Assembly (NCBI RefSeq): GCF_022049065.2
Contig: NZ_CP095743.1
Coordinates: forward strand, 3,053,001 to 3,117,000
Direction of reading: 5' to 3'
Length of the DNA stretch: 64,000 nt
DNA from: Niallia sp. Man26
Lineage (GTDB): Bacteria > Bacillota > Bacilli > Bacillales > Cytobacillaceae
Both the position numbers and the translations under genes were made by a program. Of this stretch, positions 20,421 to 28,451 are shown one piece after another. The notes beneath the pieces are model-generated. The model was given only the letters and a program-made list of their open reading frames with translations. It was not told the DNA's origin and did not search any database. Positions within the stretch are counted from its first letter, which is position 1. Each line of letters begins with the position of its first letter.

Positions 20421-20990
20421 ATGATCTATAAAGAACTCATCATCGCGATGGGCCGGTCTGGATTATTAGGATTTGGAGGTGGTCCTTCTGTTATACCGCT
20501 TATTCGCTATGAAGCAGTAAATAAATTCAAGTGGCTTGATAATGAAGAGTTTGGGGAAATATTGGCGATTGCTAATACTTTGCCTGGACCAATCGCTACA
20601 AAAATGGCCGCCTATTTAGGCTACCGCCAAAAAGGTATTTCAGGAGCTATCGTTTCTGTGCTCGCCCATATTCTGCCGACATGCCTGGCAATGGTTGTGC
20701 TAATTTCCTTTATTAACGTTGTCAGCCATTCTGCTGTCATCACAAGCATGGTGTCTGCTGTTATTCCTGTTATTGCAGTAATGCTTGGCATGATGGCCTA
20801 TGAGTTTGCAGAAAAAGCAGTCAAAGGCTTAGGTATCTATGTTGGTGCAGCACTAACACTGTTATGTCTGTTCCTGCTTCAATACATTTCCCTTCACCCA
20901 GCTATTGTTGTATTAATCTTCTTGATTTACGGAGCATTTCATTTCAATCTTAAAGATCGTATTCTACATAAAAAAGAAAGAGGCATGTAA
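20421..20990 (+). CDS. ywrB: Chromate transporter, N-terminal-type subunit
   Basis: A 189-residue membrane protein, one half of a split CHR-family chromate transporter. FGGGPSVIPLIRYEAV and the ANTLPGPIATKMAAYLGYR signature are the conserved CHR motifs, followed by about five hydrophobic segments. In short-chain CHR systems two such proteins of opposite topology work together to export chromate. The downstream partner starts two bases after this stop. AAAGGAGAAATAAAG precedes the ATG. Symbols follow B. subtilis ywrA/ywrB by pattern, and which half is which is not certain. Confidence 0.88.
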   Translation: MIYKELIIAMGRSGLLGFGGGPSVIPLIRYEAVNKFKWLDNEEFGEILAIANTLPGPIATKMAAYLGYRQKGISGAIVSVLAHILPTCLAMVVLISFINVVSHSAVITSMVSAVIPVIAVMLGMMAYEFAEKAVKGLGIYVGAALTLLCLFLLQYISLHPAIVVLIFLIYGAFHFNLKDRILHKKERGM

Positions 20991-20992
20991 AC

Positions 20993-21535
20993 ATGGTATT
21001 AATCAGCATCTTTTTAAGCTTTTTGTTATCAAATATATTTGGATATGGCGGCGGTCCTGCCTCTATTCCACTCATGTATGAAGAGATTGTTAACCGGTAC
21101 AATTGGCTGTCAAATGCGGAGTTTTCCAATATGCTCGCACTTGGAAACGCCCTGCCTGGTCCAATCGCAACAAAAATTGCTGCTTATGTCGGGTTTGGCA
21201 TCGGTGGCTGGTGGGGCTTTATTGCTGCACTGGCAGCGACGGTCATTCCATCTGCTGCAGCGCTCATTTTCCTTGCCAATGTGATGAGCAAGCACCGCGA
21301 TTCGAAAATAGTGAAAGGGATGACACTGTTGGTTCAGCCTGTTATTGCCGCATTGATGATAATCCTTACTTTTGAAATGCTGCAAGACTCCTATATTTCA
21401 TTAGGCTGGATTCAAACAGCAGCAATCGCTGTAATCGCATTTGCCTTACTGCAAAAATTCAAAGTTCACCCAGCTTTTGTAATCATTCTTGCCTTCCTTT
21501 ATGGTGGTCTTGTTGTTCCACATCTAAACAGTTAA
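20993..21535 (+). CDS. ywrA: Chromate transporter, second subunit
   Basis: A 180-residue membrane protein homologous to its upstream neighbour: FGYGGGPASIPLMYEEIVNRY, LGNALPGPIATKIAAYVG and a similar helix pattern. It is the second half of the split CHR transporter. The stop-to-start distance of two bases implies tight co-expression. It is followed after 21 bases by an Lrp-type regulator gene. The internal similarity of the two subunits reflects the ancient duplication that fused into single long ChrA proteins in other bacteria. Confidence 0.88.
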   Translation: MVLISIFLSFLLSNIFGYGGGPASIPLMYEEIVNRYNWLSNAEFSNMLALGNALPGPIATKIAAYVGFGIGGWWGFIAALAATVIPSAAALIFLANVMSKHRDSKIVKGMTLLVQPVIAALMIILTFEMLQDSYISLGWIQTAAIAVIAFALLQKFKVHPAFVIILAFLYGGLVVPHLNS

Positions 21536-21556
21536 AAGGAGAAAGGAACATATTTT

Positions 21557-22033
21557 ATGACAAATGGACATGATCTTGCACCTAGCAAACTAGATCAGAT
21601 TGATCATTTAATCTTGTCTTTATTGCATGATAACGGCAGGATTTCCTACACCGATATCGGCAAAGAAGTCGGGATCTCAAGGGTAGCTGTACAGATGCGG
21701 ATTAATGCAATGATCGAAAATGGCATTATTGAAAAGTTCACGGCTGTAATAAATCCAGAAAAAATCGGCAAAACAGTTTCTGCTTTCTTCAATATTGATG
21801 TAGAACCGAAGCATCTCGAAGAAGTAGCCAAACTATTAGCAGACAATGCTGCTGTAGGCAGTCTCTATCATATGACTGGCCCCAGTAAACTGCATATGCA
21901 CGGATTATTTGCTGATAATCAGGAAATGGAGCTATTCCTTACAGACAAGCTATATGCTATCGAAGGTGTCGTCAGCGTAGATTGCCAAATATTAATTAAA
22001 AGATACAAGAGCAGAATGGGAATGAAGCTGTAG
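21557..22033 (+). CDS. ywrC: Lrp/AsnC-family regulator of the chromate genes
   Basis: A 158-residue regulator. The N-terminal helix-turn-helix ([31 protein letters not shown]) is the AsnC type, and the C-terminal RAM-like domain (about 70-150) follows. B. subtilis YwrC (ChrS) represses the ywr chromate transporter genes and is the likely counterpart, although here its gene is last rather than first. It ends at a bidirectional terminator facing the HAD gene. The effector is unknown; chromate is proposed for the B. subtilis protein. Confidence 0.85.
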
Positions 22034-22053: not shown

Positions 22054-22092
22054 AAAAAAGCAGGGATACATTCTCCCTGCTTTTATTTTTTT
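22054..22092. terminator. Bidirectional intrinsic terminator
   Basis: AAAAGCAGGGA/TCCCTGCTTTT with a short loop, between ywrC (+) and the HAD phosphatase gene (-), whose stop it overlaps. Confidence 0.87.
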
Positions 22093-22661
22093 TCCTCATT
22101 TAAATTAAGAAAATCCCAAACCTCAGCCCAGCTATGAACCCTGTCATAAGAAAGATCTTTATTGTATGATTGATCTTTTACTAACAAGTGAACTCCTGTT
22201 TGTGCCAGTGTGTTTAGCACCGCTGGCTTATCATCCATATAGAAATCAAGGTCCAGGCTTGAAATAACATCGATTTTTTCATGATCAGCCATACCGCAGA
22301 AGAACTGCTCATCCTTAACTGGAAAGCCTTTAGTCTTCATCCATTCCTTCGTCCGTTCTGCAAATTCCTTATTACGTGCGGTAATATAATACACTTCATG
22401 TCCGCTATTTGTCAGCCTTTGCAGAAATTCAACTGCATTCGGATATGGCGGGCAATCTGTGAAATAAATTTCTTCGCTTAAAGTGGTCCACATGTTCTTC
22501 CCTTCATCAGCATTAAGGCCAAAGGGCTCATGTATTTCCACGGTCTTCAGTGCATGAAAATAATCGAGATGCACTTCCTTTTGCAGTTTCTTATTATATA
22601 AATGAAAGGCATGCTCTCTTAAATTTATTAATGTATCATCAATGTCAAAACCGAACTTCAT
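22083..22661 (-). CDS. yqfW: HAD-superfamily 5'-nucleotidase-like phosphatase (YqfW-like)
   Basis: A 192-residue HAD hydrolase of the NT5C/YqfW group. FGFDIDDTLINL supplies the nucleophile Asp and acid Asp, YYITARN the motif II threonine, and DFYMDDKP the metal-binding motif. GGAAGG sits before the ATG. It begins only 17 bases after the FAD monooxygenase stop with no terminator between, so it is probably the fourth gene of the ribA-ribD-monooxygenase operon. There it could remove the phosphate from the RibD product, a step done by HAD enzymes in riboflavin synthesis. That role is inference; YqfW itself has no proven substrate. Confidence 0.8.
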   Translation of the reverse strand: MKFGFDIDDTLINLREHAFHLYNKKLQKEVHLDYFHALKTVEIHEPFGLNADEGKNMWTTLSEEIYFTDCPPYPNAVEFLQRLTNSGHEVYYITARNKEFAERTKEWMKTKGFPVKDEQFFCGMADHEKIDVISSLDLDFYMDDKPAVLNTLAQTGVHLLVKDQSYNKDLSYDRVHSWAEVWDFLNLNEEKK

Positions 22662-22678
22662 CTATTGCATCCTTCCAA

Positions 22679-23791
22679 TTAATTACTAACGCCAATTGCC
22701 GTTGCTTTTGGAAAATGATCCTTAAAAGTAGATTCTCTGTAAAGCTGTTCTGCTTGGACTTTTTCTACCTCTGTTTTCCGAATTGCTTCGTAGGTCTCTA
22801 ATAGCGCTGGTGATTTGTGATAGAGTAAAATTTGTTTCAGCACTTCTGCAAGTTTTTCTGCATCCTTTAAGGAACTGTTGAGTCCAAATGCGCCGGTTGG
22901 GCTCATTGTGTGGGCTGCATCGCCTAAGAGCACTGCATTATTATTGATCCACGTGCTGCTTTTAGAGCTTTCCACCTTCAACAGGACAAAATCCTTCCAT
23001 GCCTTAATATGAGTGCGGACAGTTTCCTCCAACTCAGGAAAAGCAGACAGAAGATTGTCGATAAAGTGCTCAAATGATCCTTTCCGGATTTTTGAGAAGC
23101 TTCCCTCCTCAATATTCCAGCCGATCTGAATATAACCTCCATATTGGGTAAACAGAGCAACCTGACTGCCGTTAACAAGAGCCATTTTAATCGCTGGCTC
23201 CCAGCCAGATGGAGCCGGAATTTTTGCCCACAGCAAATCATAACCATGCTTGATCGCTTCAACAGGAAAGCGCCCCTGCTTTCTTATCGTTGAAAACCTG
23301 CCGTCAGCACCGACAATTATCTTGCTGTTCACTTTTGTTTCTATGCCATTAATCCAGGCGACGACGCCTGAATACTCTCCTGTTTCAGTCTGAATGAGCT
23401 CTTTCACAACACTGTCCATTTCCAGCCTGAAGGCAGCCTCTTTCGATGATTCCTCCAACAGCAGCTTCAATAAATGCTTTTGCGGAACATGAATGCCAGT
23501 ATGGCCTGTTTCTGAATGGGGAAGTATTCTTTTAACCACTTTGCCGTCTGCAATATAATCAACATGAGTCATGCAGAGTATGCCTTTTTCCTTCAGCTTA
23601 GCAAAAAGACCTGCGTCTATGAGGACTTGTTCTCCTTCCTCATTTAAATGCTCTCCACGAAATTCTTTATCTACATCATGATGCCGCTCCAGCAGGATTG
23701 TGGAAACCCCGGCCTTGCTAAGCAAATAAGCAAGCATTGCACCGCCGGGACCTGCACCAACAATACAAACTTCTGCATTCAGAACTGTCAT
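22679..23791 (-). CDS. FAD-dependent monooxygenase
   Basis: A 370-residue flavoprotein of the PHBH-type aromatic hydroxylase fold. It shows the N-terminal FAD motif VGAGPGGAMLAYLLSKAG, the family's VGADGRFSTIRK (DG motif) and GDAAHTMSPTGAFGLN (GD motif). It is predicted to use NAD(P)H and oxygen to hydroxylate a ring or amine. It starts 17 bases after ribD and is followed 17 bases later by the HAD gene. Its placement with two enzymes that make a ribityl-aminopyrimidine suggests that compound or a derivative as substrate, which is inference. It is not a known step of riboflavin synthesis. Confidence 0.85.
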   Translation of the reverse strand: MTVLNAEVCIVGAGPGGAMLAYLLSKAGVSTILLERHHDVDKEFRGEHLNEEGEQVLIDAGLFAKLKEKGILCMTHVDYIADGKVVKRILPHSETGHTGIHVPQKHLLKLLLEESSKEAAFRLEMDSVVKELIQTETGEYSGVVAWINGIETKVNSKIIVGADGRFSTIRKQGRFPVEAIKHGYDLLWAKIPAPSGWEPAIKMALVNGSQVALFTQYGGYIQIGWNIEEGSFSKIRKGSFEHFIDNLLSAFPELEETVRTHIKAWKDFVLLKVESSKSSTWINNNAVLLGDAAHTMSPTGAFGLNSSLKDAEKLAEVLKQILLYHKSPALLETYEAIRKTEVEKVQAEQLYRESTFKDHFPKATAIGVSN

Positions 23792-23808
23792 TTCCCCATC
23801 CTCTTCCC

Positions 23809-24909
23809 TTAAACTTTAGCAGGATATGCGTAGACTTTTAAGTCTTCGCCTACCTTCTCCACTGTTTCAAACCTTAGCTGAACAGCTTCATCTATCGTAT
23901 CTACATCCTCGCCTCTAAATGGTGTAAAAGAAGATTTTCCACCTAAGATTTTCGGCGCAATATAAACAATGTATTTTTGAATAAGTCTCTCTCTCATAAA
24001 GCTGGCATTTACTTCACTGCCGCCTTCGAGCAGAATATCTGTTACTCCTGCTTCATACAGCCTTTTCAATGCAGCTTGAAGGTCCATTTTCCCGTTTGTA
24101 TATGGAACTTGAATAATTTGAACGCCCTTCTGTTTTAAACCTTCAGCCTTCTTGTCATCCTCGGCAAGACCAGTCAAAATAATCGTTTGTGCCTCAGAGC
24201 AATCTGCCACATTTGCATCGAGCGGTGTTCGCAGCTTGCTATCCAAAATAATCCTGATTGGATTTTTAGATGGTTGGTCTAATCGAGTCGTTAATTTCGG
24301 ATTATCTGCTAATACTGTACCTACTCCAACTAGGATAGCATCTACCTCATTGCGAAGGTAATGCACTTCCTTCCGAGCCTCTTCCCCTGTAATCCATTGG
24401 CTGTGCCCTGTATAGGCAGCGATTTTTCCGTCTAAAGTCATCGCAACCTTTGATACAACAAATGGAGTTTGAGTAATCATATTATGCATAAAACGCTCAT
24501 TGAGTTTTTTTGCTTCTTCCTCAAGCACACCAACTTCTACTTCGATCCCCGCTTCTTTTATGATGCCAATCCCCTTACCAGCAACATGAGGATTCGGATC
24601 TTGAGCTGCCACTACAACTCTTTTCACTCCAGAATCTTTGACTAAATTCGCACATGGCGGTGTTTTTCCATAGTGGGAGCAAGGCTCCAGCGTAACATAT
24701 AGTGTAGCCCCTTTAGCATGTTCTCCTGCCATATTAAATGCATGTACCTCTGCATGCGGTTCTCCAGCCTTTCTGTGCAAACCGGAGCCTACTATGACGC
24801 CATCCTTCACTAATACCGCACCAACTACTGGGTTTGGATTTGTTTTTCCCTTCGCTGTTTCTGCAAGGTCCAATGCCATTTTCATAAAATCATGATCATT
24901 TCTCATCAT
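23809..24909 (-). CDS. ribD: RibD: bifunctional pyrimidine deaminase/reductase
   Basis: A 366-residue two-domain enzyme. The deaminase domain has PHAEVHAF (zinc His52, Glu54) and LEPCSHYGKTPPC (Cys77, Cys86). The reductase domain (about 148-362) has KVAMTLDGKIA and VGVGTVLADNP. Together they convert the GTP cyclohydrolase II product into 5-amino-6-ribitylaminouracil 5'-phosphate. Both active sites look intact. GAGGAGT lies before the ATG, 10 bases after ribA. ribE, the ribB part and ribH are not here, and no FMN riboswitch leads the operon, so this is probably not the main riboflavin operon but a dedicated copy. Confidence 0.92.
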   Translation of the reverse strand: MMRNDHDFMKMALDLAETAKGKTNPNPVVGAVLVKDGVIVGSGLHRKAGEPHAEVHAFNMAGEHAKGATLYVTLEPCSHYGKTPPCANLVKDSGVKRVVVAAQDPNPHVAGKGIGIIKEAGIEVEVGVLEEEAKKLNERFMHNMITQTPFVVSKVAMTLDGKIAAYTGHSQWITGEEARKEVHYLRNEVDAILVGVGTVLADNPKLTTRLDQPSKNPIRIILDSKLRTPLDANVADCSEAQTIILTGLAEDDKKAEGLKQKGVQIIQVPYTNGKMDLQAALKRLYEAGVTDILLEGGSEVNASFMRERLIQKYIVYIAPKILGGKSSFTPFRGEDVDTIDEAVQLRFETVEKVGEDLKVYAYPAKV

Positions 24910-24919
24910 CGTTTACTCC

Positions 24920-25660
24920 TCAAATTGTCACAATCTCTTCTTGCAATGGTATATGTCCAGATTTCTGCACTTTCGTGTCCAAATACTTCTCGTTAAACGC
25001 TGATCTGTCTCCCCATAACGGAACATTCTCACTTGCAGTTAATCCAATCTTCTTCAATGCTTCCAGCTTTTTAGGATTGTTCGTAATTAGTTTAACAGGC
25101 TTTGTGCGCAATGCTTGCAGGACACTGATCGGCTCTTCATAGCTTCTTGTGTCATCAGCAAAATCAAGAGCATGGTTTGCCTCTACTGTATCCAATCCTT
25201 CCTGCTGCAGCAAATAAGCTAATGACTTTGTGAACAGACCAATTCCTCTGCCTTCATGGTTGGCAAGGTAAAAGAGGGCACCACTGCCGTGTTCAACAAT
25301 CATCTTCATTGACTGATGCAGCTGGAATCCGCAGTCACAGCGCTTGCTACCGAAAATATCACCTGTATGACAAATGCTGTGCATGCGGATAAGCGTATCT
25401 TCTGTCTGCTCAAAATCGCCATATACTAAGACTGATGATTGCTGCAAGTCTGCAAGATGCATCGAAGGCAAGCTGTTTAACAGCTCCTCTTTTGACTGCT
25501 GCTCTTCTATTGGCAGCCATGTGTACCATTGGAAAGTTACAACTTGATCTTCAAGCTGAACAGGCAGCTTGACTGGCCCGACAAGGCATATTTTTTTATC
25601 TTCCTTAAACGGAATCATTTTCATTTTATCTTGAAGAAGATCAATCACTTCTTTTTTCAT
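24920..25660 (-). CDS. ribA: GTP cyclohydrolase II, monofunctional
   Basis: A 246-residue GTP cyclohydrolase II. The zinc site CHTGDIFGSKRCDC gives Cys97, Cys108 and Cys110 with the exact family spacing, and NHEGRGIGL and the LITNNPKK segment are present. The DHBP synthase domain found in the usual Bacillus RibA fusion is absent, and there is about 40 residues of extra N-terminal sequence compared with short RibA. The ATG at 25660 has AAAGGAG at 8 bases, so I reject the longer start at 25684. It opens an operon with ribD, a monooxygenase and a HAD phosphatase, led by a Fur-type box and two promoters. Confidence 0.92.
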   Translation of the reverse strand: MKKEVIDLLQDKMKMIPFKEDKKICLVGPVKLPVQLEDQVVTFQWYTWLPIEEQQSKEELLNSLPSMHLADLQQSSVLVYGDFEQTEDTLIRMHSICHTGDIFGSKRCDCGFQLHQSMKMIVEHGSGALFYLANHEGRGIGLFTKSLAYLLQQEGLDTVEANHALDFADDTRSYEEPISVLQALRTKPVKLITNNPKKLEALKKIGLTASENVPLWGDRSAFNEKYLDTKVQKSGHIPLQEEIVTI

Positions 25661-25723
25661 ATTTAAGTCTCCTTTAAATTTCATCTATCTTAATTTGTTC
25701 CAATCAAATATTTTTATCAAACC

Positions 25724-25740
25724 ACTTACTATATGTAAGT
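25724..25740. promoter_or_regulatory. Palindromic operator at the ribA transcription start
   Basis: ACTTAC-TATAT-GTAAGT, perfect 6-base arms, sits directly downstream of the -10 element of the ribA promoter. Its position is that of a repressor site, and the divergent TetR-family protein is the natural candidate. Confidence 0.55.
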
Positions 25741-25741
25741 A

Positions 25742-25770
25742 AGTATATATATATAAGAAAATAGCGTCAA
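25742..25770 (-). promoter_or_regulatory. SigA promoter of ribA (proximal)
   Basis: On the minus strand TTGACG (25770-25765), 17 bases, TATACT (25747-25742), about 80 bases before the ribA start. Confidence 0.7.
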
Positions 25771-25820: not shown

Positions 25821-25835
25821 TGATAATTATTATCA
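25821..25835. promoter_or_regulatory. Perfect 7-1-7 Fur box
   Basis: TGATAATTATTATCA is an exact match to the Bacillus Fur consensus TGATAATNATTATCA. It overlaps the -10 of the distal minus promoter and of a possible + promoter, so iron-loaded Fur could repress in both directions. Confidence 0.78.
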
Positions 25836-26015: not shown

Positions 26016-26891
26016 TTGAAAGAGAAAGAAAAAAAGATCATAGACTCTGCGCTGAAACTTTTCGCGCAAAAAGGATATTCCTCCACTTCCATTCAAGAAA
26101 TAGCAAATGATTGCGGCATATCTAAAGGTGCTTTCTATATATATTTCAAGTCAAAGGATTCTTTATTATTTGCCATTCTTGATTATTATTACAAGGAATT
26201 AGTACAGCTTTTTGACAGCATTAGGCTAGAAGACATCACTGCAAAAGAAAAGCTGGTCGAACAGACAGCAGCTTTTTTTGAACATGCTTTGAAGCATAAG
26301 GATTTCATTATTATGCAAACCCGTGAGCAGGCGATTCCCCTTAATGATTCCATCAAGCATTTAATTATGCAGATGCAAACAGATATCAGAGAGTTTTCTC
26401 TAGCATATCTGCTCGAATTATATGGAGAAAAAACGAGCCGCTTTCATTTAGATTTGCAAATCATGTACGAAGGGTTACTGCAGTCCTTCTTAAGACTTCT
26501 TCTTCATGATCAGATTGACAGGAATGCTAAAGATGTTTCCGAATATTTATGGAGAAGAATGGACTCCATTGCAGCAGGTATTATGGAAGAGAAGCCAATA
26601 TTCACTGAAGCGAATCTTTACAAATTAATGCATAAGCCAAAAATCGATTTTATGGCAGATGCTACAGAAAAATCCCTGGATATCCTTAATCAAATTCGCA
26701 AGCTTACAGAAAGCTATCCTAACAAGGAAACGATTGAAGTTACCCTTGATGTTCTAGAGTCAGAAATCAAAACAGATGCCCCAAGAAGTCCAATTATTCA
26801 AGGAATGCTTTCCAATCTTGAAGGACATGAAGAATTGCAGGACTGGATTGAAAAAATTAAAAGGCATTATCAAATAACCTCACATAAGTGA
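26016..26891 (+). CDS. TetR/AcrR-family transcriptional regulator
   Basis: A 291-residue regulator. The first 60 residues are a TetR helix-turn-helix (FAQKGYSSTSIQEIANDCGISKGAFYIYF-type, with YFKSKDSLL closing it). The remaining 230 residues are a long ligand-binding and dimer domain, larger than the usual 130-150. The start is TTG at 26016, 8 bases after AGGAGG. It is transcribed divergently from the ribA-ribD-monooxygenase operon and is the best candidate for binding the palindrome at 25724. A similar long TetR type is also found next to efflux pumps, but none is present here. The ligand is unknown. Confidence 0.87.
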   Translation: MKEKEKKIIDSALKLFAQKGYSSTSIQEIANDCGISKGAFYIYFKSKDSLLFAILDYYYKELVQLFDSIRLEDITAKEKLVEQTAAFFEHALKHKDFIIMQTREQAIPLNDSIKHLIMQMQTDIREFSLAYLLELYGEKTSRFHLDLQIMYEGLLQSFLRLLLHDQIDRNAKDVSEYLWRRMDSIAAGIMEEKPIFTEANLYKLMHKPKIDFMADATEKSLDILNQIRKLTESYPNKETIEVTLDVLESEIKTDAPRSPIIQGMLSNLEGHEELQDWIEKIKRHYQITSHK

Positions 26892-28030: not shown

Positions 28031-28363
28031 TTAGTTGTTTAAATAGGTTTTACATGCTTCCATACATTGCAAGCAAACTTCAGCACAATACTGACAATGC
28101 TTATGGTCATGTTTTTGGCATTCCTGTGCACAATCCTCACAAACTTGCATACAGATTTTAGCAAGTTCTTTAGCATATGGAGATTGACGGATAATAGCCT
28201 GTTCTAGATATCCACAGAATTCCAAGCATTCTCGGTCTGTTCGTATGCAGTCTATCATCATGCTTGATTTATCTTCAGCGAGACATTCATTCAGGCAATG
28301 ATTGCAGACTATCATACATTCTTGCAATGCCCTTACTAATGTTTGTTCTTGTTCTACTAGCAT
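28031..28363 (-). CDS. Cysteine-rich four-helix-bundle copper-binding protein (YhjQ-like)
   Basis: A 110-residue protein with 14 or so cysteines in CxxC and CxxxC patterns (CMIVCNHCLNEC, CMQVCEDCAQEC, HCQYCAEVCLQC). This is the YhjQ/Csp type, a four-helix bundle that stores many Cu(I) ions through core cysteines. There is no signal peptide, so it is a cytosolic form. The ATG at 28363 follows AGGAGGG by 5 bases; the longer frame has no site. It is a single gene between pgi and the potassium channel gene. No copper regulator or pump is adjacent. Confidence 0.87.
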   Translation of the reverse strand: MLVEQEQTLVRALQECMIVCNHCLNECLAEDKSSMMIDCIRTDRECLEFCGYLEQAIIRQSPYAKELAKICMQVCEDCAQECQKHDHKHCQYCAEVCLQCMEACKTYLNN

Positions 28364-28451
28364 AGTATCCCTCCTTAACACTTATGTAACCTAGTAGTTA
28401 TTTATCCTTAAATCTCCTCCTAAAAACATGAAATGATAGATTTATAAAATG

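Follow-up and report, generated by a model that had tools for sequence, protein, structure and literature searches.

The first half of the Niallia riboflavin pathway, relocated and free of a riboswitch, with candidate Fur and YodB-type sites and an orphan flavin monooxygenase

The window analysed here is a stretch of 64,000 nucleotides from Niallia sp. Man26 (contig NZ_CP095743.1, positions 3,053,001 to 3,117,000), and our subject is a four-gene operon within it, ribA-ribD-FMO-HAD, in which genes for a GTP cyclohydrolase II and a RibD protein stand together with those for a class A flavin adenine dinucleotide (FAD) monooxygenase, here called the flavin monooxygenase (FMO), and a HAD enzyme. 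Our verdict is that the operon neither forms a dedicated pathway apart from riboflavin synthesis nor quite amounts to an ordinary rib operon, since it combines a relocated, riboswitch-free first half of the pathway with two stress-type sites and an orphan oxygenase. The best reading, to which we assign a probability of about 0.5, is that of a flavin-supply operon that responds to iron and electrophiles and includes a ring-hydroxylating FMO.

Results

The riboflavin pathway of the host genome lies in two parts

In the host genome (5.71 Mb, 97.95% complete), the operon encodes the sole RibA and the sole full-length RibD; a second RibD_C match belongs to a frame of 178 residues. There are two flavin mononucleotide (FMN) riboswitches, one preceding the gene for an energy-coupling factor (ECF) transporter of the riboflavin type and the other preceding ribE, at the head of a ribE-ribB-ribH operon without ribA or ribD that lies on the same contig at a distance of ~0.74 Mb. 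The ribB gene of that operon, which overlaps the beginning of ribH, encodes a protein of 208 residues that lacks a RibA part. Because ribA and ribD are single and the riboswitch-led operon lacks both, the operon in the window can with high confidence be taken for the relocated, housekeeping first half of a riboflavin synthesis split in two, and not for a side branch with a ribAD of its own.

The initial annotation of this DNA had proposed a product outside riboflavin synthesis, and this was not borne out, as the genome lacks any further ribA or full-length ribD. The lack of 3,4-dihydroxy-2-butanone 4-phosphate (DHBP), lumazine and riboflavin synthases on which that proposal drew is real for the operon and not for the genome, where all three are present elsewhere; the second, riboswitch-led rib operon that it envisaged does exist, with ribE-ribB-ribH only and no copies of ribA or ribD. 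The single copies also rule out a side pathway with ribAD paralogues of its own and a dedicated natural-product cluster with an additional ribAD. Riboswitch control of the ribA-ribD half was ruled out as well, since no FMN aptamer precedes the operon and no Rfam match was found anywhere in the window.

Across the genus, a single unfused RibA (frame of 246-271 residues) occurs in 13/13 Niallia genomes, and all 11 Niallia relatives searched with the DHBP model have RibB-only frames of 209-251 residues. Ten of 11 Niallia have one RibD, and the remaining one (G009), whose contig ends inside the operon, has none. When 35 FMO-bearing relatives and these 11 Niallia were taken together, 44 of the 46 genomes had one RibD, one had two and one had none. 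The RibD of the FMO operon is thus normally the only one of its genome, even beside a classical RibBA, which argues that the operon belongs to riboflavin synthesis in relatives too.

Layout of the operon and identity of its RibA, RibD and HAD proteins

All four genes lie on the minus strand, with ribA at 24920..25660, ribD at 23809..24909, FMO at 22679..23791 and HAD at 22083..22661, and are separated by 10, 17 and 17 bases. The ribA start is the ATG at 25660, preceded by AAAGGAG; the longest frame opens at 25684 and gives 254 residues. A domain search of the four proteins returned GTP_cyclohydro2 (PF00925), the RibD deaminase and reductase domains, FAD_binding_3, and a HAD domain of the NT5C type (PF06941). 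Terminator-like sites between 21500 and 26200 number three (shuffle mean 3.2), and none of them falls in the three gaps: two lie within ribA and ribD, and the strongest, a hairpin of 11 pairs at 22056..22084, lies between the HAD gene and a converging chrS-like gene. This hairpin was listed on the plus strand, and its minus-strand reading continues into TTTTTTGT. On the common direction of the genes, their spacing, their identities and the absence of terminators between them, the initial annotation was therefore correct.

RibA is a divergent, stand-alone GTP cyclohydrolase II. Its match to PF00925 (E 1.8e-45) begins only at profile position 27, and its score against TIGR00505 is 179.8, under the cut-off of 205.85. 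The zinc Cys and the active-site Tyr, Asp and Arg, whose roles we take to be those familiar from this enzyme class, are retained in an alignment to 2bz0 and are invariant across the window protein and 29 relatives. A predicted model with a predicted local distance difference test (pLDDT) value of 83.6 has E. coli GTP cyclohydrolase II as its best structural match (template-modelling scores TMq 0.57, TMt 0.79). The structural match to UTP cyclohydrolase was much weaker, and that identity was set aside, the protein being the sole RibA of a complete pathway. In a tree that took in 17 of the 18 classical RibBA loci (one without the search motif was left out), divergent RibA and classical RibBA are split by a long branch with support 100. 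An FMO-specific RibA subtype was considered and dismissed, since the FMO-linked RibAs form no single clade in this tree.

RibD scores 401.9 bits against TIGR00326 and matches the B. subtilis RibD structure at 5.3e-109. For the HAD enzyme no sequence relative at E 0.1 was found in the PDB; its gene accompanies ribA-ribD in relatives both with and without the FMO, and the protein is probably the phosphatase of the riboflavin pathway.

Two candidate repressor sites precede ribA

Upstream of ribA we found a promoter-like sequence on the minus strand, TTGACG-17-TATACT (25742..25770; 10/12 consensus positions), which is conserved as TTGACG-17-TAWACT in 13 aligned Niallia leaders; the number of promoter-like sites in the operon region as a whole is about that of shuffled sequence (15 versus 12.1). 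This promoter-like site overlaps an inverted repeat, CTTACTTACATATAGTAAG (25725..25743, minus strand), of the form TACT-N7-AGTA, which is a candidate YodB-type operator: available text of PMC8063818 gives TACT-7-AGTA as the preference of YodB. Further upstream, and overlapping a weak -10-like TATGAT (25837-25832), lies an exact match to the Fur box, TGATAATAATTATCA (25821..25835, minus strand). Judged on the DNA sequence, both a Fur site and a site for a YodB-like repressor probably stand before ribA.

The longer core TTACT-N7-AGTAA occurs once in the window, before ribA, and is exact in 11 of 13 Niallia leaders and present with one mismatch in the other two. In relatives with a divergently placed HxlR-family regulator, the gap between that gene and the operon (extending to a VOC gene in 5/22 loci) contains an exact TACT-N7-AGTA in 14 of 22 cases, against 0.18 expected from shuffles that preserve base composition only, and a further 4/22 carry it with one mismatch. 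One row of the leader survey (L136) duplicates another locus (L069), so that 14/23 there means 13/22 distinct loci, and L047 and L051 are one species. The exact TTACT-N7-AGTAA occurs at 15 sites in the 667,336 bp of the 54 FMO loci described below, and all 15 precede the FMO-rib gene set. Among leaders of ribA-ribD-HAD operons, those of Psychrobacillus have it exactly (2/3) or with one mismatch (1/3), and six others lack it; it was found in none of 15 lone ribA leaders, with one mismatch in 3/25 FMO-only leaders (0.96 expected, from shuffles of the same kind), and neither at the riboswitch operon nor at the transporter locus. The nearest solved protein to the neighbouring HxlR regulator of relatives is YodB itself (1e-27), with the N-terminal Cys aligned.

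No match to the Fur box arose in 100 shuffles, and its presence before ribA bears out a hint of low-iron control in the initial annotation. With zero or one mismatch it occurs in 7/7 FMO-bearing Niallia genomes, and in the five FMO-less Niallia the closest sequence near the promoter has 1, 2, 3, >4 and >4 mismatches. These five species form one clade, and the difference therefore counts as one event; G009, which has a perfect box, was counted neither as FMO-positive nor as FMO-less, its operon being broken by the contig edge. In the host genome the pattern occurs at 15 places with at most one mismatch, compared with 6 for the reversed pattern. These include a siderophore-type binding protein, two FecCD permeases and an esterase gene, and a flavodoxin gene (L012:983-1459) has a perfect box 42 bases upstream.

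The FMO is linked to one family of RibA

Relatives were collected by searching Bacillales contigs with the FMO, which gave 54 loci. RibA of the same kind is present at 29 of these, RibD at 22, HAD at 19 and all three at 17, the co-occurrence that the initial annotation had set as its test; the grouping of FMO with ribA, ribD and HAD is beyond chance. The divergent HxlR-family regulator occurs at 22/54 loci, every one of which has RibA. The four-gene order is kept in Niallia, Ureibacillus and Lysinibacillus, and other orders are found elsewhere: FMO-ribA-ribD-HAD in Gottfriedia-like and in several Neobacillus and Mesobacillus genomes, FMO-ribA-ribD without HAD in Paenibacillus, and ribA-ribD-HAD-FMO in one Peribacillus. 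Seven of the 54 loci have FMO and RibA without RibD. Conversely, ribA-ribD-HAD without FMO is found at Neobacillus, Psychrobacillus and Priestia loci and in five Niallia species, which have lost the FMO. A VOC gene adjoins the FMO in 5/54 loci and an MFS gene lies near it in only 7/54; there is no conserved tailoring gene.

The 35 FMO genomes examined for RibA type (27 selected because RibA is adjacent, 8 because the FMO stands alone) all have at least one divergent RibA (149-163 bits), including 8/8 of those chosen for a non-adjacent FMO, and 18 of them additionally carry a classical RibBA (234-272 bits, 397-425 residues). We then have a survey of 121 genomes of the family, in which FMO presence was set at E <= 1e-60 and the two RibA types were told apart without the tree, on best E-value and match count: FMO is found in 34, and divergent RibA in 34/34 FMO-positive versus 31/87 FMO-negative genomes (Fisher 2.8e-12). 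In two genera chosen for being mixed, divergent RibA occurs in 3/3 genomes with FMO versus 1/12 without (p 0.009), and in 5/5 versus 2/10 (p 0.007). The genomes are not independent, and these p values are therefore too small. Two further genera have divergent RibA in 8/8 and 5/5 sampled genomes and FMO in none, which argues against a strict mutual need.

Relatives of the FMO and its likely chemistry

The closest solved relative of the FMO is a flavin monooxygenase of Bacillus niacini (8uiu, 8urc, 8urd; 359 residues, 28% identity), which binds 2,6-dihydroxypyridine; the FMO shares its fold, and action on 2,6-dihydroxypyridine is not implied. No paper recognisable as the source of these three structures came up in the literature searched. 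Next comes PqsL, whose structure was determined with the aromatic amine 2-aminobenzoylacetate. The FMO would most likely hydroxylate an electron-rich ring, either phenolic or N-heteroaromatic; its substrate is the least certain part of our explanation. In one Psychrobacillus the FMO gene (L102:5986-7067) is spread over two reading frames, perhaps as a pseudogene or through a sequencing error.

Neighbouring genes

Converging on the rib operon, a chrB-like gene, a second chromate-transporter-like frame and the chrS-like gene (20421-22033) form a chromate-efflux pair with its regulator; chrS-like or chrB-like genes also occur in 11/12 Niallia relative loci searched. On the other side, a TetR-family gene (26016-26891) is divergent from ribA and lies beside ribA in 10/12 Niallia relatives (not in L042 and L044). 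A Cys-rich four-helix protein encoded at 28031-28381 resembles Csp1 copper storage proteins, with a weak match below the family cut-off.

Discussion

A proposed stress-responsive flavin-supply operon

The model we propose builds on features read from the sequence (the split pathway, the single gene copies, the missing riboswitch, the sites with their conservation and the gene linkage) and adds to them inferred repressor identities, enzyme activities and a phosphatase step. RibA would convert GTP to the diaminopyrimidine, RibD would deaminate and reduce that product, and the HAD enzyme would probably remove the phosphate to give 5-amino-6-ribitylaminouracil. Fur would repress the operon when iron is plentiful, and a YodB-like thiol sensor would do so in the absence of a quinone or other electrophile. 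When iron runs short or electrophiles cause stress, more flavin would become available to flavodoxin and other flavoenzymes, the co-transcribed FMO among them; the flavodoxin gene has a perfect Fur box too. There are precedents: E. coli ribA is a member of the SoxRS regulon according to accessible passages of PMC6092379, and iron-regulated riboflavin genes exist in other bacteria, as described in parts of PMC6041382. That the FMO itself is a stress-linked ring hydroxylase served by this flavin supply has, in our estimate, a little less than an even chance. A role in detoxifying ring compounds under stress is the better fit to YodB-type control and to the VOC gene in 5/54 loci, and oxidation of a pyrimidine derived from RibA and RibD is the better fit to the tie with divergent RibA.

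Several observations weigh against a flavin-supply operon under these two regulators. The Fur pattern is not clean, as it also occurs by a DUF2573 gene (perfectly), a LuxR-type gene, flagellin and phosphotransacetylase. The box is moreover confined to Niallia: among 88 leaders from other genera none has zero or one mismatch and one has two, and Fur control as a general feature of the operon was dismissed outside Niallia because the box is missing there. Four of the 22 HxlR gaps (three Paenibacillus, one Neobacillus) show no clear repeat, having none or an unrelated near-match, and the one HxlR regulator inspected for it lacks a second Cys towards its end that would match Cys101 of YodB. A search of the window and of 12 Niallia loci (5-7 kb) turned up no HxlR gene; it did not extend to the rest of the Niallia genome. 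Finally, the FMO stands apart from RibA in 25/54 loci, an arrangement that flavin supply by itself leaves unaccounted for.

The strongest competing explanation starts from the linkage of the FMO to divergent RibA. Here the FMO would act on a pyrimidine made by RibA or RibD, either the diaminopyrimidine phosphate or 5-amino-6-ribitylaminouracil, whose oxidation at C5 or at the 5-amino group would give a product that is redox-active or binds metal, the first half being shared between riboflavin synthesis and the branch. The FMO is indeed confined to genomes with divergent RibA (34/34 versus 31/87, and 8/8 where it is not adjacent), and the nearest structure binds 2,6-dihydroxypyridine, a uracil-like ring, with PqsL and its aromatic amine next. 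The seven loci with FMO-ribA and no ribD make RibA the minimal partner of the FMO. Published work also shows such precursors in use: in the portions consulted, PMC12273248 describes vicine in faba bean as fed by GTP cyclohydrolase II products, and PMC7109123 has the RibA product as a starting compound in work on 8-azaguanine. Against a branch of this kind, the single RibA and RibD of Niallia must serve riboflavin, divergent RibA is without FMO throughout two genera (8 and 5 genomes) and FMO was lost in five Niallia species, no tailoring gene is conserved and MFS genes are near in only 7/54 loci, and a common fold at 28% identity is not proof of substrate. We consider the branch unlikely on balance. 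The diversion of an intermediate proposed in the initial annotation would survive only in this doubtful form, as a branch off the riboflavin pathway and not a separate pathway. Taken further, and only as a tentative suggestion, oxidation at C5 of a diaminopyrimidine received directly from the divergent RibA/RibD might give a bacterial counterpart of divicine-type redox-active pyrimidines; one could speculate that a Fur/YodB-type switch turns on its production when iron is scarce or quinones cause stress, at the cost of the sole riboflavin precursor of the cell.

It is improbable, in our judgement, that the operon is simply an ordinary, relocated housekeeping riboflavin block whose FMO and promoter repeats are neutral passengers or control something unrelated. 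That RibA and RibD are sole copies agrees with such an origin, as do the absence of FMO from five Niallia species and its occurrence without a nearby RibA in 25/54 loci. Neutral passengers would, however, sit poorly with a repeat that is present in 13/13 Niallia leaders, recurs across genera and is otherwise absent from the 667,336 bp of neighbouring sequence, or with an FMO tightly linked to divergent RibA in differing gene orders.

Implications and comparison with known systems

In this split pathway the committed step of flavin synthesis has been freed from the FMN riboswitch and apparently given to iron and thiol-stress regulators, which opens the link between iron and flavin, and the electrophile control of flavin synthesis, to direct testing in Gram-positive bacteria. 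An orphan FMO so strictly paired with one RibA family suggests an unrecognised reaction. The case also urges caution, as an oxygenase beside ribA and ribD does not prove a natural-product cluster. We did not find the FMO-rib gene set described in the literature searched, subscription papers lying outside it, and novelty in print is not established.

With the riboswitch-led ribDE(BA)H operon of Bacillus the Niallia system shares its enzymes and intermediate, and the second half of the Niallia pathway keeps the FMN riboswitch and the order ribE-ribB-ribH. In contrast to the Bacillus operon, the first half is detached and riboswitch-free, its RibA is of the divergent family, RibB is unfused, and an FMO and a HAD gene have been added. 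Toxoflavin and similar pathways reuse GTP cyclohydrolase II and RibD-like proteins; unlike these, the four-gene operon has no methyltransferase, and its ribA and ribD are the only copies of the genome. The Bacillus niacini monooxygenase, although the closest solved relative of the FMO, is only 28% identical to it. The nearest regulatory parallel is catDE of B. subtilis, which is under the control of Fur and of CatR/YodB according to available sections of PMC6212828: as there, a Fur box and an operator of the DUF24/HxlR type appear to share one promoter region, and the VOC gene beside the FMO in 5/54 relatives extends the likeness. Unlike catDE, which encodes a catechol dioxygenase, the candidate sites in Niallia precede flavin synthesis genes and an FMO.

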